A DNA stretch of 64,000 nucleotides from Halarcobacter bivalviorum (GTDB lineage: Bacteria > Campylobacterota > Campylobacteria > Campylobacterales > Arcobacteraceae), in contig NZ_CP031217.1 in NCBI RefSeq assembly GCF_003346815.1, positions 806,001-870,000 of the forward strand, read 5' to 3'. Shown here in pieces: positions 9,067 to 64,000 of this stretch. The translations under genes were made by a program, and so were the position numbers. The notes beneath the pieces are model-generated. The model was not told the DNA's origin and ran no database searches. It saw only the letters and a program-made list of their open reading frames with translations. The first letter of the stretch is position 1, and every line of letters begins with the position of its first letter.

Positions 9067-9079
9067 TTTTTCTCTCCTT
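8020..9079 (-). repeat. Direct repeat unit A (dctP body)
   Basis: This 1,060-base segment recurs at 9223-10282 in the same orientation (offset 1,203). I compared the lines by eye and found no difference. It spans from the ribosome binding site to four codons before the stop (the last three sense codons and the stop lie outside). Sequence outside it is related but diverged. Confidence 0.9.
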
Positions 9080-9094
9080 TTTTAGTCTATAAAA

Positions 9095-9128
9095 GGATTA
9101 TAATCTAAAGTTATGTACCTATTATGTA
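9095..9128 (-). promoter_or_regulatory. Promoter of the operon dctP with TACATAA repeats
   Basis: Read on the minus strand, two TACATAA units (9122-9128 and 9111-9117) are 11 bases apart and are followed by TATAAT (9097-9102) as a -10 box. The same order and identical spacing occur before the second dctP copy. An 11-base period is typical of dimers of OmpR/PhoB-type regulators on one DNA face. The regulator is not identified. Confidence 0.55.
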
Positions 9129-9178
9129 CATAGGAAAGAAATTTAAAAATTTAAGTTAAAATATAGGTTAGAGAGTGA

Positions 9179-9203
9179 AGACTATCGGAAAAACCGATAG
9201 TCT
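9179..9203 (-). other. Perfect 10-bp stem-loop between the dctP copies
   Basis: AGACTATCGG / CCGATAGTCT form a perfect 10-base stem around a 5-base loop, eight bases past the stop of the upstream dctP copy. There is no T tract on either side, so it is a poor intrinsic terminator. It may protect the 3' end of the dctP message or limit read-through into the dctP-dctQ-dctM operon. Confidence 0.6.
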
Positions 9204-9210
9204 AGTAGAA

Positions 9211-10269
9211 TTATTTAGTGTTTAAAGCACCCTTGATAAGGTCTTCACCGATGTTATCAGCATCATAGAATTCAGGGTAAATTTTACTAACAGCATTTCT
9301 CCAAGCATCTTTTTGCTCTTCGTTTAAGTTAATAATTTCTAACTTACCAGTTTTATCAGCATACTCTTTAATTAATTCGAATTGCTCATTATTTAATTGA
9401 GCAGCAAATTCTCTTTCTTTATCTGTAGCATCTTTCATAGCTTGTTTAACATCTTCTTGTAAATCAGCTGGTAAAGAGTTCCAGAATTTTTGAGACATAA
9501 CAACTAAGTAACCTAAATAACCGTGATCAGAAATAGTTAAATATTTTTGAACTTCATGGAATTTTTTAGTATAGATGTTAGAAATTGGGTTTTCAGCTGC
9601 ATCAATAACACCTTGTTGTAATCCTGAATAAACTTCAGAGAAAGGCATCATTTGTGGATTTCCACCAACAGCATGGAATTGAGCTTCTAATACTTTAGAA
9701 GACATAATTCTAAATTTTTGACCTTCTGCATCTTCTGGTAAGATTAAAGGTTTTTTAGAAGAAGATAATTGTTTGAAACCATTATCCCAGAAAGCTAAAG
9801 CTACATAACCTTTTTCAGTTACCATATCTTTTAGTTTTTGACCAACTTCTCCATCTTGAACTCTGTGTAAGTGATCAACATCTTTGAATAAAAATGGTAA
9901 ATCAAATAAAGCTAATTGAGGTACAATTTTACCAAACTTAGAAAATGACGGTGCAGCCATTTGAACAGAATCTAATTTTAATGCTTTTAATACTGCATTA
10001 TCTTTATATAATTGAGAAGATGGGTAAACTTGAACATCAATTCTACCTTCAGAAAGTTCCTCAAGTCTTTTTTCGAAGTAGTCAGCTGCCTTTCCCTTTG
10101 GCGTATTTGGACTTACAACGTGTGAGAATTTAAGTACGAATTTTTCAGCTGCTGCTGGTTTTGCAGCTTCTGCAGTTTTAGTCTCCTCTTTGTTGTCCCC
10201 ACAACCTGTGAATAATAACATTGATGCTACTGCAGCACTTGATACTATCCCTTTCATTGTTTTAGTCAT
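9211..10269 (-). CDS. dctP: TRAP substrate-binding protein DctP, second tandem copy
   Basis: The 352-residue protein is identical to the operon copy except for its last residues (GALNTK instead of GALATE). It has the same lipoprotein-like signal (Cys23) and receptor domain. It lies upstream of the operon copy in the same orientation and has its own promoter, so it may supply extra binding protein. The final codons align with those of the other copy at the same stop position but differ at about half the bases. This suggests two older paralogues whose bodies were later made identical, rather than a very fresh copy. Confidence 0.9.
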   Translation of the reverse strand: MTKTMKGIVSSAAVASMLLFTGCGDNKEETKTAEAAKPAAAEKFVLKFSHVVSPNTPKGKAADYFEKRLEELSEGRIDVQVYPSSQLYKDNAVLKALKLDSVQMAAPSFSKFGKIVPQLALFDLPFLFKDVDHLHRVQDGEVGQKLKDMVTEKGYVALAFWDNGFKQLSSSKKPLILPEDAEGQKFRIMSSKVLEAQFHAVGGNPQMMPFSEVYSGLQQGVIDAAENPISNIYTKKFHEVQKYLTISDHGYLGYLVVMSQKFWNSLPADLQEDVKQAMKDATDKEREFAAQLNNEQFELIKEYADKTGKLEIINLNEEQKDAWRNAVSKIYPEFYDADNIGEDLIKGALNTK

Positions 10270-25242: not shown

Positions 25243-26364
25243 ATGAAAATAGTATATATCTCAAGATCAATTATCCCTTCAAGAACAGCAAATAGTATTC
25301 ATGTAATGAAGATGTGTAATGCTTTTGCTTCTTTAGGACATGAAGTTACACTTTTAGCTCCTTGGACAAAAAAGCTTGAAGAGAAAAATATAGAGGATTT
25401 ATTTGAATATTATGGAGTTGAAAAAAACTTTGAGTTAAAAAAGCTTTTTTCTCCTAATATTAAATATCTTAAAAAAAGAATTTATTCATATAGATGTTTA
25501 AAAGAGGTTCAAAAAATCAATCCTGATATTGTTTATGGAAGAGATGATATGTTTGCTTTTTATCTGACTCAAAAAAGTAAATATTTTACTCTTTTTGAAA
25601 AACATGAACCTTATGATGGAAAAGGTTTTAATGACTTTTTCTTTGATAAGTTTATTAAAAATAATCAAAACAAAGCAAAGCTTGTTGTAAACTCTAATGA
25701 ACTTAGAAAGATGTACAATAAAAGCTGTAGTATTGCTTTAGATTCAATTTTAGCAGCAAGTAATGGTACAAATATTATTCCTGATGACAAAATACCTTCA
25801 AGTATAACTTTAGATGAAAAAAGAGTTCAAATTGGATATGTAGGAAGTCTTTTTAAAGGAAGAGGAATTGATATTATTATTGAGCTAGCAAAAAAGATTC
25901 CAGATGCAACATTTCATATTATTGGTGGAAAAGATAAAGATATTGAATTTTGGAAATCAAAAGAGAATTTAGAGAATCTTATTTTCCATGGTTTTGTAGA
26001 ACCTAAAGAGACTTATAAATATAGAAATATGTGTGATATTCTTTTAGCTCCTTATCAAAGTGATAATGAGGGAAATAGGTCAAGTAAATATATGTCTCCT
26101 ATTAAACTTTTTGAATATATGTCTTCAAAAAAAGCGATTATTTGCTCAAATTTTAAAGTTGTGTATGAAGCTTTAAATGATGAGTGTGCTTTATTAGTTG
26201 ATAGTTCAGATATAAATGCTTGGGAAAATGCAGTTAATGAATTAATTGAAGATAAAATAAAAAGAGAAAAACTAGCAAATAATGCCTATGAAAAGTTTTT
26301 AAATTATCATACTTGGAGTGCAAGAGCACAAAAGATTTTAGATTATATTCAAAGTTCTAAATGA
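25243..26364 (+). CDS. Glycosyltransferase family 4
   Basis: The 373-residue GT-B enzyme has an N-terminal domain opening with YISRSIIPSRTANSIHVM. Its C-terminal donor-binding domain has GYVGSLFKGRG, and an acidic motif follows in APYQSDNEGNRSSKYMSPIKLFEYMSS with SPIKLFEYM as the GT4 signature. It likely adds a sugar to the growing core on the cytoplasmic side. Sugar and linkage are unknown. It overlaps the YrbL-like gene by four bases. Confidence 0.85.
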   Translation: MKIVYISRSIIPSRTANSIHVMKMCNAFASLGHEVTLLAPWTKKLEEKNIEDLFEYYGVEKNFELKKLFSPNIKYLKKRIYSYRCLKEVQKINPDIVYGRDDMFAFYLTQKSKYFTLFEKHEPYDGKGFNDFFFDKFIKNNQNKAKLVVNSNELRKMYNKSCSIALDSILAASNGTNIIPDDKIPSSITLDEKRVQIGYVGSLFKGRGIDIIIELAKKIPDATFHIIGGKDKDIEFWKSKENLENLIFHGFVEPKETYKYRNMCDILLAPYQSDNEGNRSSKYMSPIKLFEYMSSKKAIICSNFKVVYEALNDECALLVDSSDINAWENAVNELIEDKIKREKLANNAYEKFLNYHTWSARAQKILDYIQSSK

Positions 26365-26954
26365 TTGATTTAAATAGTATTGAACCAATTGGAAAAGGAA
26401 CAAATCGAAGTTGTTTTGTTCATCCAATGGATTCAAATAAATGTATAAAAATAACTCATTCAAATGATTATTCAGAGACTATAAAAGAGATTAAATATTA
26501 TAAATTCTTACAAAAAAGAGAAATCTCTTGGGATTTTTTAGCAAAATATTATGGTAGTGTAGCTACTTCTTTAGGAAAAGGTGAAGTCTTTGATTTAGTT
26601 AGAGATTATGATGGAAATGTTTCTAAAACCTTATCTTTTTATTTACAAAAAGATGAAAAAACAAAAACTTTAATAACTCCAATAAAACTTCTTGAAGATT
26701 TAAAACAATATACCCTAAAAGAGAATATTGTAGTAAAAGATTTAAACACAAAAAATATGCTTTATCAAAAAATAAATGAAAATGAAGCTAGACTTATTTT
26801 GATTGATGGGGTAGTAAATAATGACTTTTTACCTTTTTCAAAATATATCCCTTTATTCACTCAAAAAAAGATAAAAAGATTATGGAAAAGATTTGAAGAG
26901 TCTTTGCCTCATAAATACTCTTTTAATAAATATTTTCTTAGCTTACTAAAATAG
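26361..26954 (+). CDS. YrbL-like (PhoP_reg) kinase-fold protein 1
   Basis: The 197-residue protein has IGKGTNRSCFVHP at the N-terminus, then K30 (CIKITH), E43, a VRDYDG segment, a catalytic loop D127-LNTK-N132 and metal site D149 in LIDG. These are the residues of an active protein-kinase-like fold. It is the most complete of three YrbL-like proteins in this locus. YrbL in enterobacteria is controlled by PhoP/PmrA, and its substrate is not settled to my knowledge. The tight coupling to a GT4 gene suggests a core-sugar kinase or a kinase acting on the assembly enzymes (inference). Confidence 0.7.
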   Translation: MIDLNSIEPIGKGTNRSCFVHPMDSNKCIKITHSNDYSETIKEIKYYKFLQKREISWDFLAKYYGSVATSLGKGEVFDLVRDYDGNVSKTLSFYLQKDEKTKTLITPIKLLEDLKQYTLKENIVVKDLNTKNMLYQKINENEARLILIDGVVNNDFLPFSKYIPLFTQKKIKRLWKRFEESLPHKYSFNKYFLSLLK

Positions 26955-31720: not shown

Positions 31721-32284
31721 GTGTTATTTTTAAAAGATGAAGATTTTATAGCAAAGGGTAATGAAAGAGCAATATATTTGCACCCTGAAGATAATAAGAA
31801 AACAGTAAAAGTAACTTATGAAGGTAATCAAAGACAAGAGAGTAAGCAATCACAAAAAGAAATCTCTTATTATAAAGAATTAGAAAAAAGAGGAATGAAA
31901 AACTTTAAACATCTACCTAAGTTTTATGGTGAAGTTGAAACTAATAAGGGAGCTGGTTTTGTTATTGAGCTAATTCGTGATTATGATGGAAAAGTTTCTA
32001 AAAGTTTTGCTTTTTATCTAAAAGAAAACGGTGTAGAAGCTTATCAAAAAGAGTTAGAAGAGTATAGACAATATTTTTTGGATAACTGTATTATTTTTAA
32101 TTATGGAATGATGCCTAAAAATATATTGCTTAGAAAAAATAGTGAAACAGATTTTGATTTAGTTTTAATTGATGGCTTAGGAGATGTATCTCATTTTACT
32201 TTGCCAAATAAAATCCCATATTTTGCTAGAAGAAGAATTAGTAGAAGATGGGAAAAATTTGTAAATAAATATTTATTAAAATAG
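31721..32284 (+). CDS. YrbL-like (PhoP_reg) protein 2, catalytic Asp missing
   Basis: The 187-residue protein has IAKGNERAIYLHPED at the start, K30 (TVKVTY), E-rich helix, IRDYDGKVSKSF, and D151 in LIDGLGD. In the catalytic loop (FNYGMMPKNIL) the position five before N134 is Gly129 where YrbL-like protein 1 has Asp127. It may therefore be weakly active or a pseudokinase, or use another mechanism. GTG start at 31721 with AGGAGA before it. It lies between a GT4 gene and the CDP-sugar cassette. Confidence 0.7.
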   Translation: MLFLKDEDFIAKGNERAIYLHPEDNKKTVKVTYEGNQRQESKQSQKEISYYKELEKRGMKNFKHLPKFYGEVETNKGAGFVIELIRDYDGKVSKSFAFYLKENGVEAYQKELEEYRQYFLDNCIIFNYGMMPKNILLRKNSETDFDLVLIDGLGDVSHFTLPNKIPYFARRRISRRWEKFVNKYLLK

Positions 32285-42461: not shown

Positions 42462-43073
42462 GTGATTACTTTAACAAAAAGCTTGCTTATTGCCAAAGGT
42501 GGGGAGAGAGATTGTTATATTCATCCTGAAGATAATAGCAAAGTTATTAAAATAGTTCATAAAACAGAAGAACATAATAATCAAAATGAATTAGAATATT
42601 CATATATGACTTATATAAAAAAAAGAAAAGGTCTTGATTTATCTCAAATCACTGATTGTTATGGTTATGTAAGTACTAATCTAGGAAAAGGATTAATTTT
42701 TGATAGAGTTTTAGATTTTGATGGAACACCTAGTAAAAGTTTTAGATACTATTTAGCAAATAAGATTATACCTTTAGCTGAACAAGAATTATTAATAACA
42801 GAGTTAAAAAACTATTTAGAAGAAAATTTAATACTTTTTGTTGATACCAGTCTTACAAATATTTTTTGTCCAAAAGTTTCAGATAGTAGTTATAAACTAA
42901 TAATTGTAGATGGCTTAGGAGCAAAAAGAACAGGTATAAAGTTTACTCTTTATAAAATTTCAAAGGCTTACACAAAATATAAAATCAAAAGACAATGGGA
43001 TAAATTTATGAAGATGTATGAAAAGGATGTTAAAAGAGCAAAGCTTGGTAAACGTCCTTTTACAAGGCTTTAG
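42462..43073 (+). CDS. YrbL-like (PhoP_reg) kinase-fold protein 3
   Basis: The 203-residue protein has IAKGGERDCYIHPEDNSK at the start, K30 (VIKIVH), LDFDGTPSKSF, catalytic loop D128-TSLT-N133 and metal site D150 (IVDGLG). The basic C-terminus ends KRAKLGKRPF. The catalytic Asp is present, unlike in YrbL-like protein 2. GTG start directly after the stop of the P-loop kinase, so the two kinases are translated together. Confidence 0.7.
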   Translation: MITLTKSLLIAKGGERDCYIHPEDNSKVIKIVHKTEEHNNQNELEYSYMTYIKKRKGLDLSQITDCYGYVSTNLGKGLIFDRVLDFDGTPSKSFRYYLANKIIPLAEQELLITELKNYLEENLILFVDTSLTNIFCPKVSDSSYKLIIVDGLGAKRTGIKFTLYKISKAYTKYKIKRQWDKFMKMYEKDVKRAKLGKRPFTRL

Positions 43074-49447: not shown

Positions 49448-50722
49448 ATGAATAAAAAAATATGTGTAATAGGATTAGGTTATGTTGGATTACCTTTAGC
49501 TCATGCCTTTAGTAATAAATATCAAGTAGTAGGTTTTGATATAAATGAATCTAGAATAAATGAACTAAATTTAGGTTTTGATAGAACATTAGAGCTTTCA
49601 GAAGATCAAGTTAAAGAAGCAATTTCAAATGGGATGAAATTTTCATTAGACATTAAAGATATTGAAGATTCTAATGTTTATATTGTAACAGTTCCAACAC
49701 CGATTGATAAATCAAATAGGCCAGATTTAACTCCTTTAATTAAATCTTCTCAAATGATAGGAAAGATTCTTAAAAAAGATGATATTGTTATTTATGAATC
49801 TACAGTTTATCCTGGGGTTACAGAAGAGGTGTGTGTTCCTGAACTTGAAAAAGAATCGGGAATGAAGTTTAATAAAGATTTCTTTTGTGGGTATTCTCCT
49901 GAAAGAATTAATCCAGGAGATAAAGAGCATACAGTTACAAAAATACTTAAAGTAACTTCTGGAAGTACTCCTGAAATAGCTACAATTGTAGATGATTTAT
50001 ATTCTTCAATTATTACAGCAGGTACTTTTAAAGCTACATCAATAAAAGTTGCAGAAGCGGCTAAAGTTATAGAAAATACACAAAGAGATGTAAATATTGC
50101 ACTTATTAATGAATTGGCACTTATTTTTGATAATATTGGAATCGATACAAATGAAGTGATTGAAGCTGCAGCTACAAAATGGAATTTTATTAAATTAAAA
50201 CCAGGACTTGTAGGTGGACATTGTATTGGAGTTGATCCTTATTATCTAACGTTTAAGGCAGAAGAATTAGGTTATAAACCAAACTTAATTTTAGGTGCAA
50301 GACAAATTAATAATGGGATGGGTAAATATATAGCAGAACAAACTGTTAAGCAAATGATAAAAAATGATAAAAAAATAAAAGATTCAAATATTTTGATACT
50401 TGGAGTTACTTTTAAAGAAAATTGTCCTGATTTAAGAAATACAAAAGTTACAGATATAGTAGATGAATTAAGAGAATATGGTGCAAATATTGATATTTAT
50501 GATCCTTGGGTTGATTTAGAGGAAACTAAATATCATTTTAATCATGAGCTTATGGAAAAAAATCCTTTTACAGAAAATAAAAAATATGATTCAATTATTA
50601 TAGCTGTAGCTCACAATGAATTTATTTCTCTTTCTGAAAATGATTTTAAATCAATAAGTGAAGGTAAAGAAATATTAATAGATATAAAGGGGATTGTAAA
50701 AAATCCTACATGGAGGTTATAA
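49448..50722 (+). CDS. wbpA: UDP-GlcNAc 6-dehydrogenase (WbpA-like)
   Basis: The 424-residue nucleotide-sugar dehydrogenase has CVIGLGYVGLPLAHAF at the start, IENTQRDVNIALINELA, the catalytic cysteine in GGHCIGVDPYYLT and a C-terminal LGVTFKENCPDLRNTK. This is the WbpA/TviB/WbpO subgroup that oxidises UDP-N-acetylhexosamines. The next three genes are wbpB, wbpD and wbpE, so UDP-GlcNAc is the likely substrate, giving UDP-GlcNAcA. AAGGAAAT ribosome site before the ATG. Confidence 0.92.
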   Translation: MNKKICVIGLGYVGLPLAHAFSNKYQVVGFDINESRINELNLGFDRTLELSEDQVKEAISNGMKFSLDIKDIEDSNVYIVTVPTPIDKSNRPDLTPLIKSSQMIGKILKKDDIVIYESTVYPGVTEEVCVPELEKESGMKFNKDFFCGYSPERINPGDKEHTVTKILKVTSGSTPEIATIVDDLYSSIITAGTFKATSIKVAEAAKVIENTQRDVNIALINELALIFDNIGIDTNEVIEAAATKWNFIKLKPGLVGGHCIGVDPYYLTFKAEELGYKPNLILGARQINNGMGKYIAEQTVKQMIKNDKKIKDSNILILGVTFKENCPDLRNTKVTDIVDELREYGANIDIYDPWVDLEETKYHFNHELMEKNPFTENKKYDSIIIAVAHNEFISLSENDFKSISEGKEILIDIKGIVKNPTWRL

Positions 50723-50725
50723 TTA

Positions 50726-51691
50726 ATGTCAGATAAAAAAAGATTTGCACTAATTGGTGCATCAGGATATATTGCTCCAAGACATATGCAAGCAATAACT
50801 GAAACGGGAAATGAACTAGTTGCAGCACTTGATCCTTATGATGGAATAGGAATTATGGATTCTCATTTTCCTCAAGCAAGTTTTTTTACAGAGTTTGAAA
50901 GATTTGATAGATTCATCGATAAATATCATAGAGAAAATGATAAGAAAATAGACTATATCGCAATAACTACACCAAACTATCTTCATGATGCACATATAAG
51001 ATTTACATTAAAAAGTGGTTGTGATGCAATTTGTGAAAAACCATTAGTATTAAATCCTCATAATATTGATCAATTAAAAATAATAGAACAAGAAACAGGA
51101 AAAAGAGTAAATAATATTTTACAATTAAGACTTCATCCTTCTATTATTGCTTTAAAAGAGAAAGTTCAAAAAGAGTTAGAAGTAAATCCAAATAAGATTT
51201 ATGATATTGATTTGACTTACCTTACAAGTAGAGGTAAATGGTACTTTGTATCTTGGAAGGGAGATGAAGATAAGTCAGGAGGAATCGCATCTAATATTGG
51301 GGTACACTTTTATGATATGTTAGCTTGGATTTTTGGAGAAGTAAAAGAGAATATTGTTCACTTAAAACAACCAGATGCAAATGCAGGATTATTAAGACTT
51401 AAAAATGCAAATGTAAGATGGTTCTTATCTGTAAATTATGATTACATCCCAGAAGAAGTAAAGGCTCAAGGGCAAACAACATTTAGGTCAATCACTGTTG
51501 AAGGTGAAGAGATAGAGTTCTCTGGAGGATTTAAAGATTTACATACAAGATCTTACGAAGAGATTTTGGCTGGTAATGGATTTGGTTTAGATGAAGCTTA
51601 TGGATCGATAGATATTGTTTCTCAAATTAGAAAAATGACACCTATTGGTTTAAAAGAAGATTATCACCCTTTTTGTAAAAAGATTATCTAA
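50726..51691 (+). CDS. wbpB: UDP-GlcNAcA 3-dehydrogenase (WbpB-like, Gfo/Idh/MocA)
   Basis: The 321-residue oxidoreductase has [17 protein letters not shown] at the N-terminus and the catalytic EKP motif in CEKPLVLNP, followed by [16 protein letters not shown]. WbpB oxidises C3 of UDP-GlcNAcA to a ketone, with NAD recycled by 2-oxoglutarate. GGAGG ribosome site inside the end of wbpA; one base is shared with the wbpD start. Confidence 0.93.
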
Positions 51692-52269
51692 TGTCTAATT
51701 ATTTTGCCCATGAATCATCATATGTAGATGATAATGTAAAAATAGGTGAAAATACTAAAATTTGGCATTTTTCACATGTATTAAGTGGTACAACAATTGG
51801 AAATAATTGTTCTTTTGGACAAAACTGTGTTGTTGGACCAAAAGTAAATATTGGAAATGGTGTTAAAGTTCAGAACAATATCTCTATTTATGAAGGTGTT
51901 GAAGTAGAAGATGATGTTTTTTTAGGACCTTCAATGGTTTTTACAAATGTTATTAACCCAAGATCTTTTATAGTACGAAAAGAAGAGTTTAAAGTAACGC
52001 TTCTTAAAAAAGGTTGCTCTATTGGTGCAAATGCAACAGTAGTATGTGGTAATACAATTGGTAAATACGCATTAATTGGTGCAGGAAGTGTTGTAAATAA
52101 AGATGTAAAAAATTTTGCACTTATGGTTGGTGTTCCTGCAAGGCAAATCGGTTGGGTTTCTGTTGCTGGAAATAGATTAGAGTTTGATGAAAATAACATT
52201 GCCGTAGATACTTTTGATAATACAAAATATAAATTAGAAAATAATGAAGTTTCATTACTAGAGAAATAA
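51691..52269 (+). CDS. wbpD: UDP-GlcNAc3NA N-acetyltransferase (WbpD-like)
   Basis: The 192-residue left-handed beta-helix acyltransferase starts [20 protein letters not shown] and has many hexapeptide repeats (IGNN, IGNG, IGAN, LIGAGS). [10 protein letters not shown] contains the conserved asparagine region of WbpD/WlbB. It acetylates the 3-amino group made by WbpE. The order wbpA-B-D-E is uninterrupted. Confidence 0.92.
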
Positions 52270-52278
52270 GGAAAATTA

Positions 52279-53364
52279 GTGAAAATAGATTTTGCAAAAT
52301 TACAAGACCAATACCAATTATATAAAACAGAAATTGATGAAGCTATTCAAGCAGTATTAAATAAATCAAACTATATTATGGGAGAAGAAATAACTCAATT
52401 AGAAGAGTCTCTTCAAGAGTTTACCAAAGCAAAATTTGCAATCTCATGTAGTTCAGGTACAGATGCTTTACTTCTTGCTATGATGGCACTTGATATCAAA
52501 CCTGGTGATGAAATAATTACTACACCTTTTACTTTTATTGCAACTGCTGAAACAATTGCATTTCTGGGAGCAACTCCTGTTTTTGTAGATATTGATGAAA
52601 AGACTTATAATTTAGATGCTTCTTTAATTGAAGAGAAAATTACTTCTAAAACTAAAGCAATAATTCCTGTATCTATTTATGGACAACCAGCAGATATGCA
52701 AAAAATTCAAGATATAGCAAATAAGCATAATCTAAAAGTGATAATTGATGGTGCACAAAGTTTTGGTTCTACTTTTAATAATATAACAGATTCTGTATGG
52801 GGAGATATTTCAACTACTTCTTTTTTTCCTGCTAAACCACTAGGGTGTTTTGGTGATGGAGGAGCAGTTTTTACTGCTAATGAAGAACTAGCAGAAAAAA
52901 TGAAATCATTAAGAGTTCATGGACAAAGCAAAAGGTATCATCACAAATATATTGGTATGGGTGGAAGACTTGATACTATCCAAGCTGCAATATTAAATGT
53001 AAAATTAAAATATTATGAAAAAGATTTAGCTTTAAGACAAGAAGTTGCAAGTAAATATACAAAATCTTTAGCTAGAAAAGATTTAGTTTTACCATATGTT
53101 GATAAAAAAGCAACTTCTGCTTGGGCACAATACTCTGTAAGAGTGAAAAATAGAGATAGTGTACAAGAAAAATTAAAAGAAGCAGGAATTCCAACTGCTG
53201 TACATTATCCTAAGCCTTTACATATTCAAGAGTGTTTTGAATATCTAGGGTATAAAAAAGGTGGTTTTCCAATTTCTGAAATAGTTTCAGAAGAGATTAT
53301 GAGTTTACCAATGAATCCTTATTTAACAGATGAGGAAATAGAATATATTATAGGATATTTTTAG
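52279..53364 (+). CDS. wbpE: UDP-sugar 3-aminotransferase (WbpE-like)
   Basis: The 361-residue DegT/DnrJ/EryC1-family PLP enzyme starts IDFAKLQDQYQLYKTEI. Cofactor motifs are SCSSGTDALLLAMMA, DGAQSFGST and the Schiff-base lysine in SFFPAKPLGCFGDGG; RVHGQSKRYHHKYIGMGGR is also typical. It adds the amino group from glutamate to the 3-keto sugar. With WbpA, B and D it makes UDP-2,3-diacetamido-2,3-dideoxy-glucuronate. Confidence 0.93.
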   Translation: MKIDFAKLQDQYQLYKTEIDEAIQAVLNKSNYIMGEEITQLEESLQEFTKAKFAISCSSGTDALLLAMMALDIKPGDEIITTPFTFIATAETIAFLGATPVFVDIDEKTYNLDASLIEEKITSKTKAIIPVSIYGQPADMQKIQDIANKHNLKVIIDGAQSFGSTFNNITDSVWGDISTTSFFPAKPLGCFGDGGAVFTANEELAEKMKSLRVHGQSKRYHHKYIGMGGRLDTIQAAILNVKLKYYEKDLALRQEVASKYTKSLARKDLVLPYVDKKATSAWAQYSVRVKNRDSVQEKLKEAGIPTAVHYPKPLHIQECFEYLGYKKGGFPISEIVSEEIMSLPMNPYLTDEEIEYIIGYF

Positions 53365-55241: not shown

Positions 55242-56366
55242 ATGAAAAGTAAAAGAGAATGTTCTAAGTGTGTGTTAGATACTACGGTTGAAGATATAAC
55301 CTTTGATGAAAATGGAGTGTGTAATTATTGTAGAGAATATGATAGTGTTGTAAAGACTATTCCTCATGGAGAAAAAGCAAAAGAAGTATTAAATCAAACT
55401 GTAAAACAGATCAAACAAGATGGTAAAGGTAAAAAGTATGATTGTATTTTAGGTTTAAGTGGAGGTGTGGATAGTACATATCTTGCATATCTTGTTGTTG
55501 AACTTGGACTAAGACCTTTGGTTGTACATATAGATACAGGATGGAATTCTGAAATAGCTGTTCAAAATATTGAAAATGTTGTGAATAAATTAAATTTAGA
55601 TTTACATACACATGTTATTGATTGGGAAGAAATGAAAGACTTACAACTTGCATTTTTTAAAGCCTCTATTCCAGATTGTGATATTCCTCAAGACCATGTT
55701 TTTCCTGCATTACTAAACAAAATTGCAAAACAAAATAAAATAAAACATATTATAAGTGGACATAATATTGTTACAGAGTATATACTTCCTAGAAATTGGT
55801 CTTATGATAGCAATGATTTGACACATATACTAGATATACATAAAAAGTTTGGAAAAATGCCTTTAAAAAAATATCCGAGGTATTCACTATTTGATAGAAT
55901 ATTTATTTATCGTTGGATTTTTCCTATTAAATCTCATAGAATTTTGAATTATGTCTATTATAATAAAGAAGAAGTAAAAAAGTTTATTCAAGAAAAACTA
56001 GGTTGGAGAGATTATGGAGGTAAACATTTTGAATCTAGGTTTACAAAATTCTTTCAAGCATATTATTTACCAACAAAATTTGGTTTTGATAAACGAAAAG
56101 CTCATTTATCTAATCTTATAGTTTCAAATCAAATAACTAGAAATGAAGCTTTAATGGAACTTAAAAATGATTTATATGATTTGAATGAACTAGAAAATGA
56201 TAAAGAATACATATGTAAAAAACTAGATATAACACTTGAAAAGTGGAATGAAATAATGAACTTACCATTAAAAGAGCATCGAGACTATAAAAGTGATTAT
56301 AATAAATTGTGGTATGTTTACTATAGATATCTTGTCGAAGTTATTAAAAGAATTATAAAAAGATGA
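55242..56366 (+). CDS. wbpG: N-acetyl sugar amidotransferase, WbpG family
   Basis: The 374-residue protein has zinc-like cysteines C7, C10, C27, C30 (CSKC, CNYC), then the ATP-pyrophosphatase P-loop LSGGVDSTY (73-78) and HIISGHNIVTEY. WbpG/PseA enzymes convert a sugar acid or acetamido group to an amide or amidine using ammonia. In the best known case (P. aeruginosa) ammonia comes from a HisH2/HisF2 pair. No such pair is seen here, but a related protein with a fused glutaminase is encoded at 59488. Overlaps the next GT by four bases. Confidence 0.85.
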   Translation: MKSKRECSKCVLDTTVEDITFDENGVCNYCREYDSVVKTIPHGEKAKEVLNQTVKQIKQDGKGKKYDCILGLSGGVDSTYLAYLVVELGLRPLVVHIDTGWNSEIAVQNIENVVNKLNLDLHTHVIDWEEMKDLQLAFFKASIPDCDIPQDHVFPALLNKIAKQNKIKHIISGHNIVTEYILPRNWSYDSNDLTHILDIHKKFGKMPLKKYPRYSLFDRIFIYRWIFPIKSHRILNYVYYNKEEVKKFIQEKLGWRDYGGKHFESRFTKFFQAYYLPTKFGFDKRKAHLSNLIVSNQITRNEALMELKNDLYDLNELENDKEYICKKLDITLEKWNEIMNLPLKEHRDYKSDYNKLWYVYYRYLVEVIKRIIKR

Positions 56367-57568: not shown

Positions 57569-58543
57569 ATGAAATATAGCCTAAAGGGTAAATTTAAAAG
57601 AGCAATTGTAACAGGTGGTGCCGGATTTGTAGGTAGCAATTTAGTTCAGTCCTTATTAGAAGATGGATTGGTAGTTATTAGTATAGATGACTATAGTGCT
57701 GGAACAAATCTAAACCTTAAAGATCTAAAAGAAATATATGAGGAACAACTAATTGAAGCTAACTGTGATATTACAAATAAAAAGGACCTTGAAAAGTACT
57801 TCGATGGTGTAGATGTTGTATTTCATCAAGCATGTTCAAAAATGACTATTTGTTTAAAAGATCCACATAGAGATCTTGAAGTTAATGCTGCAGGAACATT
57901 TAACTTATTAGAATTAGCAAGAGATTATAAAGTTAAGAAGTTTGTACATGTATCAACAGGATCAGTATATGGAGTTGCTCAATATTTTCCAACAGATGAA
58001 AGTCATCCTTTAAATCCAACATCATATTATGGAGTGAGTAAACTAGCAGGTGAAAAATATGCAAGAGTTTTTAGTGACTTATATGATATGGATATTTCTA
58101 TTTTAAGATACTACCATGTATATGGGCCTAAACAAAACTCTGGACAATATGGAGGTGTCATAGCAATTTTTTGTGAGAAAGCATTGAAAAATGAAGATTT
58201 GACTATATATGGTGATGGAACACAAATCAGATCCTTTACATATGTTAAGGATGTTGTAAATATTAATAAAATTGTTGCAATTAAGGGTGGAAAAGGTGAA
58301 GCTTATAATTGTGCATCAGGCTTAAAAGTTTCTATACAGGATATGGCAGAAAAAACTATTTCACTTGCTAATGCTAATTCTAAAATTAAATATGAAGACT
58401 GGAAGACAGGTGATATCAAAGATTTTGAGGTAAGTCATCAAAAACTATTAAATATTGGTTTTGAATATGAATATTTAGATTTTGATATAGGACTTGAAGA
58501 AACATTTAAATGGTATAAAAAAATGGTAAATAAAAATGTATAG
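57569..58543 (+). CDS. NAD-dependent sugar epimerase/dehydratase
   Basis: The 324-residue extended SDR has IVTGGAGFVGSNLVQSLLED at the start, VFHQACSKMTICLKDP, STGSVYG and Y-x3-K in YYGVSKLAGEKYA, followed by RYYHVYGPKQN. It resembles UDP-glucose/UDP-GlcNAc 4-epimerases, but the QACSKMTICLKDP region in place of the usual LAAQ is distinctive. The specific sugar is uncertain. AAAGGAAA ribosome site. Overlaps the GT2 gene by eight bases. Confidence 0.82.
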   Translation: MKYSLKGKFKRAIVTGGAGFVGSNLVQSLLEDGLVVISIDDYSAGTNLNLKDLKEIYEEQLIEANCDITNKKDLEKYFDGVDVVFHQACSKMTICLKDPHRDLEVNAAGTFNLLELARDYKVKKFVHVSTGSVYGVAQYFPTDESHPLNPTSYYGVSKLAGEKYARVFSDLYDMDISILRYYHVYGPKQNSGQYGGVIAIFCEKALKNEDLTIYGDGTQIRSFTYVKDVVNINKIVAIKGGKGEAYNCASGLKVSIQDMAEKTISLANANSKIKYEDWKTGDIKDFEVSHQKLLNIGFEYEYLDFDIGLEETFKWYKKMVNKNV

Positions 58544-59486
58544 AGAAAATAAAATTGGAATTGTAATACCTGCATATAATGAAGAATTGCTGATTTTAGA
58601 AACATTAGATGGTATGCCAAATTATGTAGATAAAATGTATGTTATTGATGATTGTAGTAAAGATAAAACTCTAAAGTTATTAAAAGAAAGACAAAAAATA
58701 GATAATAGAATTATAATTATTCATCATGAAACTAATAAGGGACTTGGTCAGTCTTTAATAGATGGATATGTTAAAAGTAAAGAAGATGATATTGATATTA
58801 CAGCTGTGATGGCAGGTGATAATCAGATGCATCCAGATGATTTACCTGCATTATTAGACAAAATAATAGATGAAGACTATGATTATGTTAAAGGCAATAG
58901 ATTACTGCATCAAAATATAGAATCTATGCCAACCTATAGGTTTCTTGGAAATTCATTATTAACTATATTAACAAAATTTGCTACGGGATATTATTTTTCA
59001 ATGGATCCTCAATGTGGATATACAGCAATAAAAAATGATGTATTAAAGAATATACCTATCGAAAAAATGACTACTGGATATGGTTATAATGCTGATATTT
59101 TATGTATGTTAAACATTCAAAGGTATACAGTAGCAGATGTTGAAGTTAGACCTGTGTATGATAGAGAAAAAAGTAAAATAGTATTATGGAAATATATTCC
59201 AAAGACTAGTTGGATTTTAACTAAGTTATTTTTTAGAAGACTGTGGCAAAGATATACAGTACTTGATTTTCACCCGTTAGTTTTATTTTATTTAGTTGCT
59301 TTCTTTAATTTTATGTTTATATTGATACCCGGAACGATTAGATTGTTTTATATGTATTTTTCAACCGGAGAATTCCCATCTACAACGTTTAATATAACAG
59401 CTACAACATTTCTAATAACGATTCAATTGATATTATTTGCGATATGGATGGATATGGACTATAACAAAGATCCAAAAAGGAAATAA
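58536..59486 (+). CDS. Glycosyltransferase family 2 with C-terminal membrane segments
   Basis: The 316-residue DPM1-like GT2 has IGIVIPAYNEELLILETL at the start, VIDDCSKDKT and AVMAGDNQMHPDDLPALL. Two hydrophobic segments (about 245-270 and 285-308) are at the C-terminus. Such enzymes load a polyprenyl phosphate with a sugar, or act as polyisoprenyl-linked sugar transferases, and often pair with GT-C enzymes. The incomplete membrane protein at the end of the window might be such a partner (inference). Confidence 0.82.
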   Translation: MYRENKIGIVIPAYNEELLILETLDGMPNYVDKMYVIDDCSKDKTLKLLKERQKIDNRIIIIHHETNKGLGQSLIDGYVKSKEDDIDITAVMAGDNQMHPDDLPALLDKIIDEDYDYVKGNRLLHQNIESMPTYRFLGNSLLTILTKFATGYYFSMDPQCGYTAIKNDVLKNIPIEKMTTGYGYNADILCMLNIQRYTVADVEVRPVYDREKSKIVLWKYIPKTSWILTKLFFRRLWQRYTVLDFHPLVLFYLVAFFNFMFILIPGTIRLFYMYFSTGEFPSTTFNITATTFLITIQLILFAIWMDMDYNKDPKRK

Positions 59487-59487
59487 A

Positions 59488-61479
59488 ATGTGTGGAATAT
59501 TTGGATTTGCATCAAATGGAAAAAGTATAAAAAACTTGAATGTAGAGAGTACTATCAACAACCTGTACAAGCTATCTGAAACTAGAGGTAAAGAGGCTTC
59601 TGGACTTATAACTATAGATAGTAGTAGTATAAAATATATAAAAGATTCTATTTCTCCATCAAAACTAATAAAAAGAGATGACTATAAAAAAATTATTAAA
59701 AACTTACTGACCAAAAATAAAGAGGAGACTGTGGTAATAATAGGTCATTCAAGGTTAGTAACTAATGGAGAAGCAGAAAACAATGATAATAATCAACCTG
59801 TTGATATTGGTAACATAGTAGGAGTTCATAACGGAATAATAACGAATGAGTCTCAGCTATGGGAAGATAATAAAAATTTGATAAAAAATTTTGATATCGA
59901 TACAGAGGTATTTTTTAAAATTTTTGACCAATTTCTTATCAACAATGATTTAGTTGCATCTATCAGTAAGACATTTAAAAAAATTGAAGGTGTTGCCAAT
60001 ATAGCAGCTGTTTTTAAAAAACTTAACATATTATTATTGTCTACTAATAATGGATCTTTATTTTATGTCAAATCTAAAGACTCAAGTTCAATGATATTTG
60101 CTTCAGAAAAATTTATAATAGAACAGGTTATAGAAAAATCTAATTTAGAAGATAATTACGATATAAACTTTATAAAACATGTAGTACCTAATTCTTTAGC
60201 TATATTTAGTTTAAATGATTTAGAAGCATTAGAACTAGAATTTAATAATGTTGATGTTTTAAAAGATTTAAAGCCAAATATTGAACTAAAGAATAGAAAT
60301 GTTGAAAACCTTTCTTTAAATGAATTAAAAGTTTTGGAAAATGATGCTTTTGAAAAAATAGACTTTACTAAATATTACGAAGTTTATAAGTTAAATAAAG
60401 AAAAGATAGCTAAGTTAAGAAGATGTAGAAAATGTATTTTACCTGAAACAATGCCATTTATTCAATTTGATAATGATGGTGTGTGTAATTATTGTAAAAG
60501 TTACAAAAAACATGAGCCAAAAGGGATTGAAGAACTAAAAAAAATTCTTACTAAAACAAATAATGAATATGATTGTCTAGTAACACTAAGCGGTGGTAGG
60601 GACAGTTGTTACGGTTTACATTACATAAAAGAGAAACTTGGTTTAAATCCTGTTACATACACTTATGATTGGGGAATGGTTACTGATTTAGCTAGAAGAA
60701 ATCAAATGAGAATGTGTGGTAAACTTGGTGTTGAACATATTTTAGTGTCGGCTGATATAAAGAAAAAACGAGATAATATAAGAAAAAATGTATCTGCTTG
60801 GCTTAAGAATCCAGAGCTTGGGATGATTCCACTATTTATGGCTGGAGACAAACAGTACTTTTATTGGTCAAATAAAATAGCTGAACAAACTAAAGTGAAA
60901 AATATAATATTATGTGAAAATCTTCTAGAAACTACGAGGTTCAAAACAGGTTTTTGTGGTATCTCACCAACTCATGGTACAGCCAATACTTATACTCTTT
61001 CAATTAGTAAGAAATTTCAGATGTTATTTTACTATGGAATGAACTTTTTAAAAACACCAAGTTATATAAACAGTTCATTATTAGATACAGTGTCTGCATT
61101 TTCAAGTTACTATGTTATGGAACATAACTTTATCAATTTATTTGATTATATTGAATGGAATGAAAATATAATTAATGATATATTATTAAATAACTATAAT
61201 TGGGAAAAATCTCCAGATACAGATTCCACATGGAGAATTGGAGATGGTACAGCTGCATTTTATAACTATATATATTATACGATGGCAGGTTTAACAGAAA
61301 ATGACACATTTAGAAGTAATCAGATTAGAGAAGGTCAAATAACAAGAGATGAAGCAATAAAATTATCAGAAGAAGAAAATTTACCTCGTTTTGAATCAAT
61401 GAAATGGTATTTAGATACGATTAACTTAAGTTTTAATGATACACTTAATACCATTAACAATGCACCAAAATTGTATTAA
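59488..61479 (+). CDS. Fused class II glutaminase and WbpG-like sugar amidotransferase
   Basis: This is a 663-residue two-part protein. Residues 1-260 are a class II glutamine amidotransferase domain: Cys2 (MCGIFGFA) as nucleophile, GHSRLVTNG at 86-94 and HNGIITNE around 114. Residues 310-660 are a WbpG/PseA-like ATP-pyrophosphatase: C313, C316, C333, C336 (CRKC, CNYC), and TLSGGRDSCYG with SGGRDS (368-373) where the stand-alone paralogue has SGGVDS. The layout resembles asparagine synthetase: ammonia made in the first domain would feed amidation of a nucleotide-sugar acid in the second. The start is ATG 59488, because Cys2 must follow it; longer frames upstream are not used. Confidence 0.85.
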   Translation: MCGIFGFASNGKSIKNLNVESTINNLYKLSETRGKEASGLITIDSSSIKYIKDSISPSKLIKRDDYKKIIKNLLTKNKEETVVIIGHSRLVTNGEAENNDNNQPVDIGNIVGVHNGIITNESQLWEDNKNLIKNFDIDTEVFFKIFDQFLINNDLVASISKTFKKIEGVANIAAVFKKLNILLLSTNNGSLFYVKSKDSSSMIFASEKFIIEQVIEKSNLEDNYDINFIKHVVPNSLAIFSLNDLEALELEFNNVDVLKDLKPNIELKNRNVENLSLNELKVLENDAFEKIDFTKYYEVYKLNKEKIAKLRRCRKCILPETMPFIQFDNDGVCNYCKSYKKHEPKGIEELKKILTKTNNEYDCLVTLSGGRDSCYGLHYIKEKLGLNPVTYTYDWGMVTDLARRNQMRMCGKLGVEHILVSADIKKKRDNIRKNVSAWLKNPELGMIPLFMAGDKQYFYWSNKIAEQTKVKNIILCENLLETTRFKTGFCGISPTHGTANTYTLSISKKFQMLFYYGMNFLKTPSYINSSLLDTVSAFSSYYVMEHNFINLFDYIEWNENIINDILLNNYNWEKSPDTDSTWRIGDGTAAFYNYIYYTMAGLTENDTFRSNQIREGQITRDEAIKLSEEENLPRFESMKWYLDTINLSFNDTLNTINNAPKLY

Positions 61480-61488
61480 GTATTACAA

Positions 61489-62058
61489 ATGACGTTTAAA
61501 TCAAAAGAAGAGATGAATAATTTTAAGAATATGTTTTTACATGGTATATACTTAGGTTTATATGGATTTGTAAAGTATTTACCATTTCCTTTTTTTCATT
61601 ATTTTAGGTATTTTGTAATTAAAATATTCGCTCCTAATATTAGGTCTAAATCTATATCTGATGGAGTAACTATATATTTTCCATGGAATATTTCAATTGG
61701 TAAAAACTCGACTTTAAATCAAGGTGTCATTATTGATGGATTTGGTGGTGTTAAAATTGGTGAAGGTGTAAGAATAGCGTCAGGAAGTGTCATTAACACT
61801 GCAGACCATAATTTTGAAGATCCAAAAGAGTTTATATATAAGCAAGGGTATATTTGTGCAGGTGTAACAATTGAAGATGATGTTTGGATAGGTGCTAATG
61901 TTTGTATCAATAAGGGTGTAACTATAGGAAAAGGCTCAGTGGTAGGGGGAGGAAGTGTCGTAACAAAAAATATACCTCCTTATTCTATTGCTGTTGGAGT
62001 TCCTGCAAAGGTTGTAAAAAAAAGAAATACAAATAATGATAAGGAACTTGATGCATAA
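61489..62058 (+). CDS. Hexapeptide-repeat acyltransferase (WbbJ-like) 2
   Basis: The 189-residue protein has an N-terminal hydrophobic region (about 15-45) and a left-handed beta-helix with ISIGKNSTLNQGVIIDG, VKIGEGVRIASGSVINTADH (histidine at the active site), VWIGANVCINKGVTIGKGS and GVPAKVVKKR. Likely a sugar O- or N-acetyltransferase. It is distinct from the first one at 54621. It overlaps the second flippase by eight bases. Confidence 0.83.
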   Translation: MTFKSKEEMNNFKNMFLHGIYLGLYGFVKYLPFPFFHYFRYFVIKIFAPNIRSKSISDGVTIYFPWNISIGKNSTLNQGVIIDGFGGVKIGEGVRIASGSVINTADHNFEDPKEFIYKQGYICAGVTIEDDVWIGANVCINKGVTIGKGSVVGGGSVVTKNIPPYSIAVGVPAKVVKKRNTNNDKELDA

Positions 62059-63316
62059 AAATATTATAGTTAATTATTTAAGTTTGTTTTTTGCTGGCTT
62101 ATCAGGAATATTTTTAAATATTTTTATTATTTCTGTATATGACTCGATTGTACTTGGAAATTTTAACTTTTTTTTAGCTTTTGTAATTGTATTATCACAG
62201 TTTTGTGTAGGAGGAATACAGTTTTCTGTATTAAAACATAATTCTCATTATATCAGAAGAGTTAGTGAAGTTTCATCATCTGTTGTATCTGCATTATTTT
62301 TATCAGGAATTTTTACATTCTTTATTATCATTATCTTATATCTACTTACTCCATTATTAAATAACTTTTTTGATTTAAAGAATTTTTCACAATCAATTTA
62401 TTTAATTATTCCATCTCTTTTATTTTTTTCTTTAAATAAAATATTATTGATGTCTTTAAATGGTTTAAATTTAATGCAAAACTATGCATTTTTTAATCTT
62501 CTAAGATATGTACTACTATTATTTTCAGTAGTTTTATTTTACAATCTTGGCATTAATGTGGAGTATTTAATTTCAGTATTCTTTATTTCTGAATTTATTT
62601 TATTTATTATGATGATTAGTTTTATGTTTTTTAAAGTTCTTATCTTAAGTCTTCCTAAACAAAGATGGATTAAACGGCATTTCTTTTTTGGTTTAAAAGG
62701 AATGTGGGGTGGAGCTTTAATGGAAACAAATACACGTATTGACATATTAATGATTGGTGCCTTTTTGGGATATGGTGCTGTTGGAGTATATAGCTTCGCC
62801 TCAATGGTTGCTGAAGGATTTGCACAAGTTTATACTATTTTAAAGAATAATGTTGACCCTATTTTTGGAAAAGCATATTTTAAAAATGAGATAGATGTAA
62901 TCAATCACACAATAGATGAAGTTAGAAAGAGATATCTAATATATTTATTTGGATTAGGTATAGTAATGATAATGTCATATAAGTTTATATTTATTAATAT
63001 ATTTAGTTTGAATAAAACTATGATTGTTGAAAGTTGGAATGTATTTATTATTTTAACTGGGTTAATAATGTTATCATCATTTTATAGACCATTTATAGGC
63101 CTTTTAAATCAAATAAATCAACCAGAAAAATTTTCACAAATTATAATATTTAGTGTAATTTTAAATATTATCCTTAATATAGTATTAATACCATGGCTCG
63201 GAATTTATGGTGCAGCATTTTCTACAGGATTAGTTTTTTTTGTAGAAAGTTATCTAGTTTATTTATTTTCAACAAAACATTTTTTAATTAAGGAAAGTTA
63301 TGCTCGAAAAAATTAG
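62051..63316 (+). CDS. Wzx-type oligosaccharide flippase 2
   Basis: The 421-residue protein has about twelve membrane segments and the polysaccharide-transporter layout (YLSLFFAGLSGIFLNIFIIS near the start; LKGMWGGALMETNTRIDILM midway). Start ATG 62051, preceded by AAGGAAC at proper spacing; an in-frame ATG at 62036 lies inside the acyltransferase gene. A second flippase in one locus suggests two different lipid-linked glycans or a replaced cassette. Confidence 0.85.
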   Translation: MHKNIIVNYLSLFFAGLSGIFLNIFIISVYDSIVLGNFNFFLAFVIVLSQFCVGGIQFSVLKHNSHYIRRVSEVSSSVVSALFLSGIFTFFIIIILYLLTPLLNNFFDLKNFSQSIYLIIPSLLFFSLNKILLMSLNGLNLMQNYAFFNLLRYVLLLFSVVLFYNLGINVEYLISVFFISEFILFIMMISFMFFKVLILSLPKQRWIKRHFFFGLKGMWGGALMETNTRIDILMIGAFLGYGAVGVYSFASMVAEGFAQVYTILKNNVDPIFGKAYFKNEIDVINHTIDEVRKRYLIYLFGLGIVMIMSYKFIFINIFSLNKTMIVESWNVFIILTGLIMLSSFYRPFIGLLNQINQPEKFSQIIIFSVILNIILNIVLIPWLGIYGAAFSTGLVFFVESYLVYLFSTKHFLIKESYARKN

Positions 63317-64000
63317 AAGAAATTATATTTTTCTATATATCATGTTATCTGGTTTTTTTTATTTTCTAATTAATTTTAAATATTTGTTTTCTCTTACTGA
63401 TGCAAATGATCCATTACAATATATAATTCCTTCTTTGTATCCAGAAAATGGATTTGAATTTATTGATAGGATTTTATTATGGCTATGGTTAAGATTAATT
63501 TCAAATCTACCTATACCTTTAGAATATGTAAGTGGTATCGCAACTTTATTAGTTACAACTTTTACATTAATGTTATCTTTGTGGTATTTAAATAAGAAGG
63601 TAAATATAATAGCAAGTTCTATATTTTTACTTTTATATGTATTTAGTCCAGCAATTTTAGAAATTTCTTCATATACATATCCTATGCAACTTTTTACATT
63701 GATATTACTTTTTGTTTCGATATGTATAGATTTATTGTCAAATAATAAAATTAAATTTTTTATTATTGGTTTTTTTCTTGTATTTCTTTTATTTACAAAA
63801 ATTCAAGCCTATTCTTTTGTAATATTTATAGCTTTTTATTTATATTATATTAGTAGTAAGAGAGATTTTTTTAGAAATCTAAGATATTTAATATTTGGAA
63901 GTATTTGTGCATTTCTTTTAATCCTATCAATTATTATCTATCTTGATGGCTATATTGTATTAAAAAATATGATTTTAAATTATCTAAATGAAATGTTTCA
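63300..64000 (+). CDS. Polytopic membrane protein, 3' end cut by window
   Basis: An open frame starts with ATG at 63300 (AAGGAAAG just before) and runs to the end of the window without a stop, giving at least 233 residues. It begins MLEKIRRNYIFLYIMLSG and is almost wholly hydrophobic, with about six membrane segments. The first periplasmic loop holds TDANDPLQY, an acidic loop as in GT-C glycosyltransferases, which use acidic residues there. Candidates are a GT-C sugar transferase or a Wzy polymerase. It overlaps the flippase gene by 17 bases. Confidence 0.6.
   Translation, partial: MLEKIRRNYIFLYIMLSGFFYFLINFKYLFSLTDANDPLQYIIPSLYPENGFEFIDRILLWLWLRLISNLPIPLEYVSGIATLLVTTFTLMLSLWYLNKKVNIIASSIFLLLYVFSPAILEISSYTYPMQLFTLILLFVSICIDLLSNNKIKFFIIGFFLVFLLFTKIQAYSFVIFIAFYLYYISSKRDFFRNLRYLIFGSICAFLLILSIIIYLDGYIVLKNMILNYLNEMF

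Follow-up and report, generated by a model that had tools for sequence, protein, structure and literature searches.

The fusion gene and its domains

The window analyzed here, a stretch of 64,000 nucleotides (nt) of Halarcobacter bivalviorum (NZ_CP031217.1, positions 806,001-870,000, forward strand), carries a gene in which a class II (Ntn) glutaminase is fused to an ATP-pyrophosphatase resembling the sugar amidotransferases WbuX and WbpG. The open reading frame (ORF) at 59488-61479 on the plus strand gives a stop-free translation of 663 amino acids (aa) that begins with MCGIFGF. The automatic ORF list placed its start at a TTG at 59437; the alternative ATG at 59488, 1 nt past the stop of the upstream gene, puts a cysteine at position 2. 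No ORF of at least 100 aa overlaps the gene on the minus strand in the ORF list. The gene and its parts are as follows, pLDDT being the predicted local distance difference test:

59488-61479, plus strand: fusion gene (type 1, see below), class II glutaminase and WbuX/WbpG-like ATP-pyrophosphatase, 663 aa
59488-60246, plus strand: class II glutaminase domain, residues 1-253
60247-60354, plus strand: linker, residues 254-289, pLDDT below 50
60409-61476, plus strand: WbuX/NASAT-like domain, residues 308-663, structural match to 8WEX
60424-60495, plus strand: conserved tetracysteine motif, C313-x2-C316 ... C333-x2-C336
60589-60606, plus strand: PP-loop SGGRDS, residues 368-373

Database searches recognized both halves. 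Among the Pfam models the fusion matched GATase_6 (PF13522; 38.4 bits, cut-off 27) and GATase_7 (34.3 bits, cut-off 25), and residues 312-646 matched the NCBIfam model TIGR03573 (WbuX) with an E-value of 9.4e-39 and 133.8 bits, under the curated cut-off of 203.2; the stand-alone paralogue encoded in the same window served as positive control and reached 307.1 bits. The best sequence match in the PDB was 8WEX, an N-acetyl sugar amidotransferase from Legionella (1.4e-12), and a profile built from ten fusions additionally found GlmS/GFAT and PurF at the N-terminus. The WbuX family is defined by a CXXC...CXXC tetracysteine, which forms a zinc site in that structure, and an SGGXDS PP-loop (PMC10607449). 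Both motifs are invariant in the ten-fusion alignment and near-invariant in 19 stand-alone relatives. Pfam, the TIGR03573 similarity and the conserved motifs thus bear out the two domains that had been read from the sequence in the original prediction, a Cys2 glutaminase and a CxxC...CxxC/SGGRDS domain, and its linker of about 50 residues agrees with the disorder at 254-289 and a C-terminal domain starting at about residue 308.

Predicted structure and conserved residues

The fusion was modeled with AlphaFold2 from a shallow 8-row alignment, which gave a mean pLDDT of 79.8 and a predicted template modeling score of 0.77, with residues 254-289 disordered. When compared by VIA-align, the N-terminal domain of the model aligned with PurF (Z 25.2, root mean square deviation (rmsd) 2.5, 233 aligned residues) and with the GlmS glutaminase 1xff (Z 24.2, rmsd 2.8, 225 aligned), asparagine synthetases being weaker (Z about 18), and residues 308-663 aligned with 8WEX over 316 residues (Z 22.2, rmsd 4.4). 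At the sequence level, the N-terminal domain showed 27% identity to GlmS of a relative (3e-14) as compared to 25% to an AsnB-type protein encoded in a neighboring gene (1e-4). The glutaminase of the fusion is therefore closer to GlmS/PurF than to AsnB. Moreover, PF00733 was not among the Pfam matches of the fusion, whereas the same library found it at 226-240 bits in the AsnB-type neighbors at two fusion loci, and asparagine synthetase kinship was rejected on this domain content. The protein had earlier been called asparagine-synthetase-like: the two-domain logic is indeed common to both and makes the name an analogy, but kinship is not supported.

The residues C2, R89, H114, N115, G116, and D138 are conserved in all 18 fusions counted, which come from four phyla, and align with identical residues in a GlmS. 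These counts omit G496 (only a C-terminal fragment; G and L numbers are our handles for genomes and loci) as well as the plasmid and viral fusions; in G461 the fusion is broken across two contig ends, and its N-terminal piece alone entered the counts and the tree. By analogy with GlmS, we take the cysteine next to Met1, the arginine, the Asn-Gly pair and the aspartate to have catalytic roles. In the PP-loop SGGxDS, position x is arginine in 18/18 fusions; among the 19 stand-alone relatives counted (solo_G004, which is truncated, and soloC_G1023 left out) it is V in seven, K in six, T in two, and R, I, L or A in one each. The exchange of V for R relative to the stand-alone paralogue (SGGVDS), previously taken as a sign of a different substrate, is a real difference, but because this position varies among stand-alone relatives it is a weak argument for a new substrate and was rejected as evidence of one.

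The glycan cluster and two types of fusion loci

The gene sits in a polysaccharide cluster. Its relevant neighbors are listed here; the names WbpB, WbpD, and WbpE were assigned in this work:

49448-50722, plus strand: UDP-sugar 6-dehydrogenase, TviB/WbpA-like (Pfam/NCBIfam)
50726-51691, plus strand: WbpB-like GFO/IDH/MocA oxidoreductase (Pfam)
51691-52269, plus strand: WbpD-like hexapeptide acetyltransferase (Pfam/NCBIfam)
52279-53364, plus strand: WbpE-like DegT aminotransferase (Pfam/NCBIfam)
55242-56366, plus strand: stand-alone WbuX/WbpG paralogue, over the TIGR03573 cut-off
58536-59486, plus strand: family 2 glycosyltransferase (GT2) of dolichol-phosphate mannose (DPM) synthase/ArnC type with two C-terminal hydrophobic helices, directly upstream of the fusion
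61489-62058, plus strand: left-handed beta-helix (hexapeptide) acyltransferase (Pfam/NCBIfam)
62036-63316, plus strand: membrane protein resembling polysaccharide flippases, with about 10 hydrophobic segments (Polysacc_synt 24.3 bits, cut-off 28.2)
63300-63998 and beyond the window end, plus strand: multi-span membrane protein with about 11 hydrophobic segments, by its position only a GT-C transferase candidate

The flippase-like protein found no match in a PDB sequence search, and the last membrane protein, 538 aa long in the genome, matched no Pfam or NCBIfam model. Beyond the window, the same cluster continues with genes for HisH (TIGR01855, 231.9 bits) and HisF2 (NF038364, 382.9 bits, over cut-off) at L009:4315-5687, which begin about 2.3 kb past the window end. 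Another fusion, of 610 aa, follows the first 8.4 kb further downstream in this genome (G000:C1:875885-877711).

Comparison of gene neighborhoods separated two types of loci. In the eight type 1 loci (the window, G043, G459, G460, G461, G512, G1188, and Solidesulfovibrio) a GT2 gene lies directly upstream of the fusion without exception, and a crude hydropathy count places two or three hydrophobic segments at the C-terminus of each of the eight GT2 proteins. The best solved relatives of the window GT2 are dolichol-phosphate mannose synthase (1.3e-9) and ArnC (2.5e-5). When genomes were searched with it at E 1e-30, exactly one match was found in six of the seven type 1 genomes, always the gene beside the fusion, as compared to none in the ten type 2-only genomes (Fisher p 6e-4, uncorrected for kinship). 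Among 27 loci of stand-alone relatives a GT2 match occurred in one neighbor and was weak (L050, 35 bits). Furthermore, a flippase homologue lies at most three genes downstream in 6/7 testable type 1 loci, Solidesulfovibrio lacking it and the contig of G461 ending too early.

The twelve type 2 loci comprise the second copy in the genome of the window (G000), G002, G004, G008, G026, G077, G339, G585, G593, G703, G834, and Agrobacterium MA01. At seven of them the next gene downstream encodes a family 4 glycosyltransferase (GT4) homologous to L009:9717-10949, followed in most of these cases by PglC/PglD/aminotransferase-like genes. A WbpB match was present in 9/10 type 2-only genomes as compared to 3/7 type 1 genomes, and within the family in 6/6 type 2 genomes as compared to 21/98 others (p 2e-4, uncorrected for kinship), the latter association being inflated because these six genomes are closely related. 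Type 2 tracks WbpB, an enzyme of the UDP-GlcNAc3NAcA pathway.

Distribution and phylogeny of the fusions

The fusion was present in 7/104 genomes of the family, counting cases with both domains in one frame, and in 5/397 genomes of a phylum sample that overlaps it. In other phyla, the fusion occurred in 6/395 genomes of the phylum of Vicingus serpentipes (G460), together with one C-terminal fragment, in 1/301 genomes of the phylum to which a Chloroflexi record belongs (in two pieces on separate contigs), where one relative lacking the glutaminase was also present, and in 2/40 genomes of the phylum of a Sumerlaeota record. Fusions are thus present in three phyla besides that of the window, at a frequency of 0.3-1.5% of genomes across the three large samples, counts that may be low as per-genome scoring was limited to few candidates in the phylum-wide samples. 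Among 72,556 plasmid records three carried the fusion (Solidesulfovibrio and two Agrobacterium), and the loci of Solidesulfovibrio and Agrobacterium MA01 were analyzed. In NZ_CP026539.1 (L082) and NZ_CP045856.1 (L083) it is annotated as 7-cyano-7-deazaguanine synthase and as glucosamine 6-phosphate synthetase, respectively; these are likely misannotations.

The phages collection yielded no match to the fusion, in contrast to IMG/VR, where an identical 608-aa fusion was found on two contigs. On one of them (L085:10001-11827, IMGVR_UViG_3300032032_000031) the gene for a T4-type terminase large subunit is located about 5 kb upstream of the fusion, and some nearby genes look glycan-related by eye. 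Glycans may here be remodeled by a phage-encoded amidotransferase. A relative without glutaminase lies at L086:4999-14178 (IMGVR_UViG_3300035698_007036; 14 of 119.5 kb read), where the C-terminal domain shares a sugar cluster of the viral contig with genes for WecB, GDP-mannose dehydratase, and PseB/FnlA-like dehydratase and RmlD-like proteins. Similarly, the Chloroflexota relative in G1023 (L074:9536-10717, minus strand) consists of the C-terminal domain alone with a linker-like N-terminus; the 20 kb fetched around its gene contain no coding sequence for a glutaminase, and the genome contains no HisF2 over cut-off.

In a tree of 39 C-terminal domains, calculated without the plasmid and viral copies and G496, the 18 fusions and the glutaminase-less Chloroflexota protein formed one clade with support of 100/99, and a branch at 64/86 had the fusions alone on one side. 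Outside the clade, the closest row was a stand-alone KSB1 protein (95/89) on a long branch, its placement being flagged as unsure by the program. A single origin of the fusion with later loss of the glutaminase would be the simplest reading of this tree.

Separate and proposed fused ammonia supply

HisH is a class I glutaminase. The acetamidino system of HisH and AglZ/HisF2 (WbuZ), the genes of which are present in this cluster, is thought to feed ammonia to a WbpG-type enzyme; it consists of separate proteins. HisH/HisF genes directly adjoin 18/27 stand-alone WbpG-type genes as compared to 0/18 fusions (Fisher p 3e-6, uncorrected for kinship; the stand-alone loci include divergent subfamilies, mostly with flanks of only about 1.5 kb), which fits the earlier statement that WbpG-type enzymes usually rely on separate HisH/HisF. 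One gene separates HisF from the fusion in G008. HisF2 (AglZ, NF038364) scored over cut-off in 5 of the 19 genomes searched and was missing at that threshold from 12 of the 17 fusion genomes. Since the cluster of the window holds a stand-alone WbpG with HisH/HisF beside the fusion, separate and fused solutions coexist there.

Proposed function

We propose that the fusion is a self-sufficient, glutamine-dependent sugar amidotransferase for glycan precursors, a function that domain content, conserved residues and the predicted structure make probable. In the proposed reaction, Cys2 would hydrolyze glutamine and release ammonia, the C-terminal domain would use ATP to adenylate a carbonyl oxygen of the sugar precursor with release of pyrophosphate, as suggested by WbpG/WbuX and other PP-loop enzymes, and ammonia from the neighboring domain would displace adenosine monophosphate. 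In this way one protein would cover a task usually divided among three, the fused glutaminase standing in for the separate HisH/HisF proteins that provide WbpG with ammonia. The activated group is most likely an N-acetyl amide that becomes an acetamidino group, an assignment to which we give slightly better than even confidence. Acetamidino formation with action on N-acetyl groups is what PMC10607449 describes for the WbuX/WbpG family. For the type 1 copy of the window, the modified sugar would probably be the one loaded on polyprenyl phosphate by the adjoining DPM/ArnC-like GT2, and a flippase may then carry the polyprenyl-phosphate sugar across the membrane for use on the outer side.

Several observations speak against this proposal. 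All four fusions scored remained under the TIGR03573 cut-off (133.8, 146.8, 122.3, and 140.7 as compared to 203.2 bits), and many residues of the C-terminal domain are specific to fusions, so that the C-terminal domain may use another substrate, or even another acceptor group, than WbuX. In the model the linker between the domains is disordered and the ammonia channel is putative. The link to GT2 is restricted to type 1, type 2 loci often having GT4 instead, and even within type 1 the GT2 of G1188 matched weakly (23% identity, no hit at E 1e-30). Furthermore, the HisH/HisF2 encoded in the same cluster of this genome could in principle serve the fusion, although their presence can be explained by the stand-alone WbpG. 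Finally, the C-terminal domain persists in G1023 and on the viral contig L086 with no glutaminase in the stretches fetched, hence the glutaminase is not indispensable.

The alternative that survives best, though we consider it doubtful, is that the fusion is a uronamide synthase, with a diacetamido-uronic acid as substrate, the carboxylate of which the C-terminal domain would activate in the manner of AsnB-type WbpS. That enzyme acts in Porphyromonas gingivalis, Pseudomonas aeruginosa O6, and Escherichia coli O121 and, as reported in PMC7468200, is required for a uronamide on a Wbp-pathway sugar, so that the same conversion on the same kind of sugar has a precedent. The WbpA/B/D/E-like genes in the cluster of the window and the WbpB association of type 2 described above are in line with this role. 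By contrast, WbpB found no match at E 1e-30 in 4/7 type 1 genomes, and the C-terminal domain is WbuX-like, a family described as N-acetyl-directed (PMC10607449). Moreover, AsnB-type genes are present in at least four fusion loci, two identified by Pfam among the ORFs screened and two by record annotation. These genes could already provide uronamides, which is a mild argument for acetamidine as the product of the fusion.

It appears unlikely that the fusion acts after GT2 on a polyprenyl-phosphate-linked sugar rather than on a soluble nucleotide sugar. Such a substrate would be compatible with the type 1 synteny, the genome-wide co-occurrence with the DPM/ArnC-like GT2 and the flippase near most testable loci, and it has a parallel in ArnD, which works on a lipid-linked sugar after ArnC. 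However, no hydrophobic segment was found in the fusion by the crude hydropathy count, and nucleotide sugars are generally assumed to be the substrates of the stand-alone relatives.

A still less probable reading, which we regard as improbable overall, is that the glutaminase domain is degenerate or regulatory and that the C-terminal domain uses free ammonia or the HisH/HisF of the cluster. The glutaminase-less relatives in G1023 (where HisF2 was not over cut-off) and L086 and the presence of HisH/HisF2 in the same cluster would suit it, but the retention of all catalytic residues in 18/18 fusions from four phyla and the lack of HisF2 over cut-off in most fusion genomes argue against it. An identity as 7-cyano-7-deazaguanine synthase or glucosamine-6-phosphate synthase has a negligible chance of being correct despite the RefSeq product names on two plasmids and the placement of WbpG in a QueC-related cluster beside multi-domain proteins (900-2603 aa, most of them from Flavobacteria) in PMC13329287: QueC was rejected as PF06508 did not match at E 0.001 and only a weak QueC-like PHROG hit of 21.8 bits was obtained, and GlmS was rejected as its models matched the glutaminase part only, at 50-59 bits as compared to cut-offs near 400.

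Returning to the self-sufficient amidotransferase, we tentatively suggest a wider reading, in which type 1 would be an unrecognized donor module for a polyprenyl-monophosphate-linked, positively charged (acetamidino) sugar destined for glycan decoration outside the membrane in several phyla. In this module a DPM/ArnC-like GT2, the self-ammoniating amidotransferase and a Wzx-like flippase would together make and export the sugar, and the sister type 2 would work in the WbpB pathway, having been taken up by plasmids, with a relative taken up by phage.

Relation to known systems and significance

Each half of the fusion is already known and the combined form is uncommon. With the WbpG/WbuX N-acetyl sugar amidotransferases (TIGR03573; 8WEX) the fusion has in common the tetracysteine, the SGGxDS PP-loop and the fold over the 316 aligned residues; it differs in the fused glutaminase that takes the place of HisH/HisF, in its score under cut-off and in its clade-specific residues. 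The model indicates a glutaminase fold and catalytic residues common to GlmS and PurF. The acceptor domains of these enzymes are a phosphosugar isomerase and a phosphoribosyltransferase, respectively, and not a PP-loop enzyme. AsnB-type uronamide synthases such as WbpS, WbqG, and PGN_1234 (role described in PMC7468200) likewise combine a class II glutaminase and an ATP-pyrophosphatase in one chain, an architecture observed in AsnB-type neighbors at two fusion loci, and are encoded in glycan clusters; the fusion differs from them in its synthetase domain, which lacks PF00733, and in a glutaminase nearer to GlmS/PurF. A comparable lipid-monophosphate sugar logic to that of type 1 is found in ArnC-ArnT. 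By gene logic only, the type 1 order of GT2, fusion and flippase also resembles the dolichol-phosphate-mannose module AglD-AglR-AglS of Haloferax volcanii, in which a sugar is attached to a lipid monophosphate, crosses the membrane and is then transferred on the outer side (PMC3871713). Unlike for type 1, no amidotransferase is named for this module in the passages considered.

The original prediction had regarded a widespread fusion of known function as an argument against itself: the fusion does recur in several phyla, but a description of it or of its function was not found in the open-access literature, subscription journals being mostly outside the search. The mechanism of WbpG-type enzymes is little known (PMC10607449), and an enzyme that carries its ammonia source in the same chain would offer a simpler setting for testing acetamidino formation and ammonia channeling. 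The present analysis also offers a likely identity for a family that is named queuosine or glucosamine-phosphate synthase in two plasmid records. Of greatest interest is how closely type 1 is tied to a polyprenyl-phosphate glycosyltransferase, a link that predicts a new way to place charged sugars on surface glycans.

Other features of the window

Three paralogous-looking genes encoding 187-203 aa are distributed across the glycan region (26361-26954, 31721-32284, and 42462-43073, plus strand); their products have similar openings (KGxxRxxxxHPxD) and are kinase-like by eye. At 8008-10269 on the minus strand lie two tandem, near-identical copies of a 352-aa protein, a TRAP-type solute-binding-like protein as named in this work, that differ only near the C-terminus.

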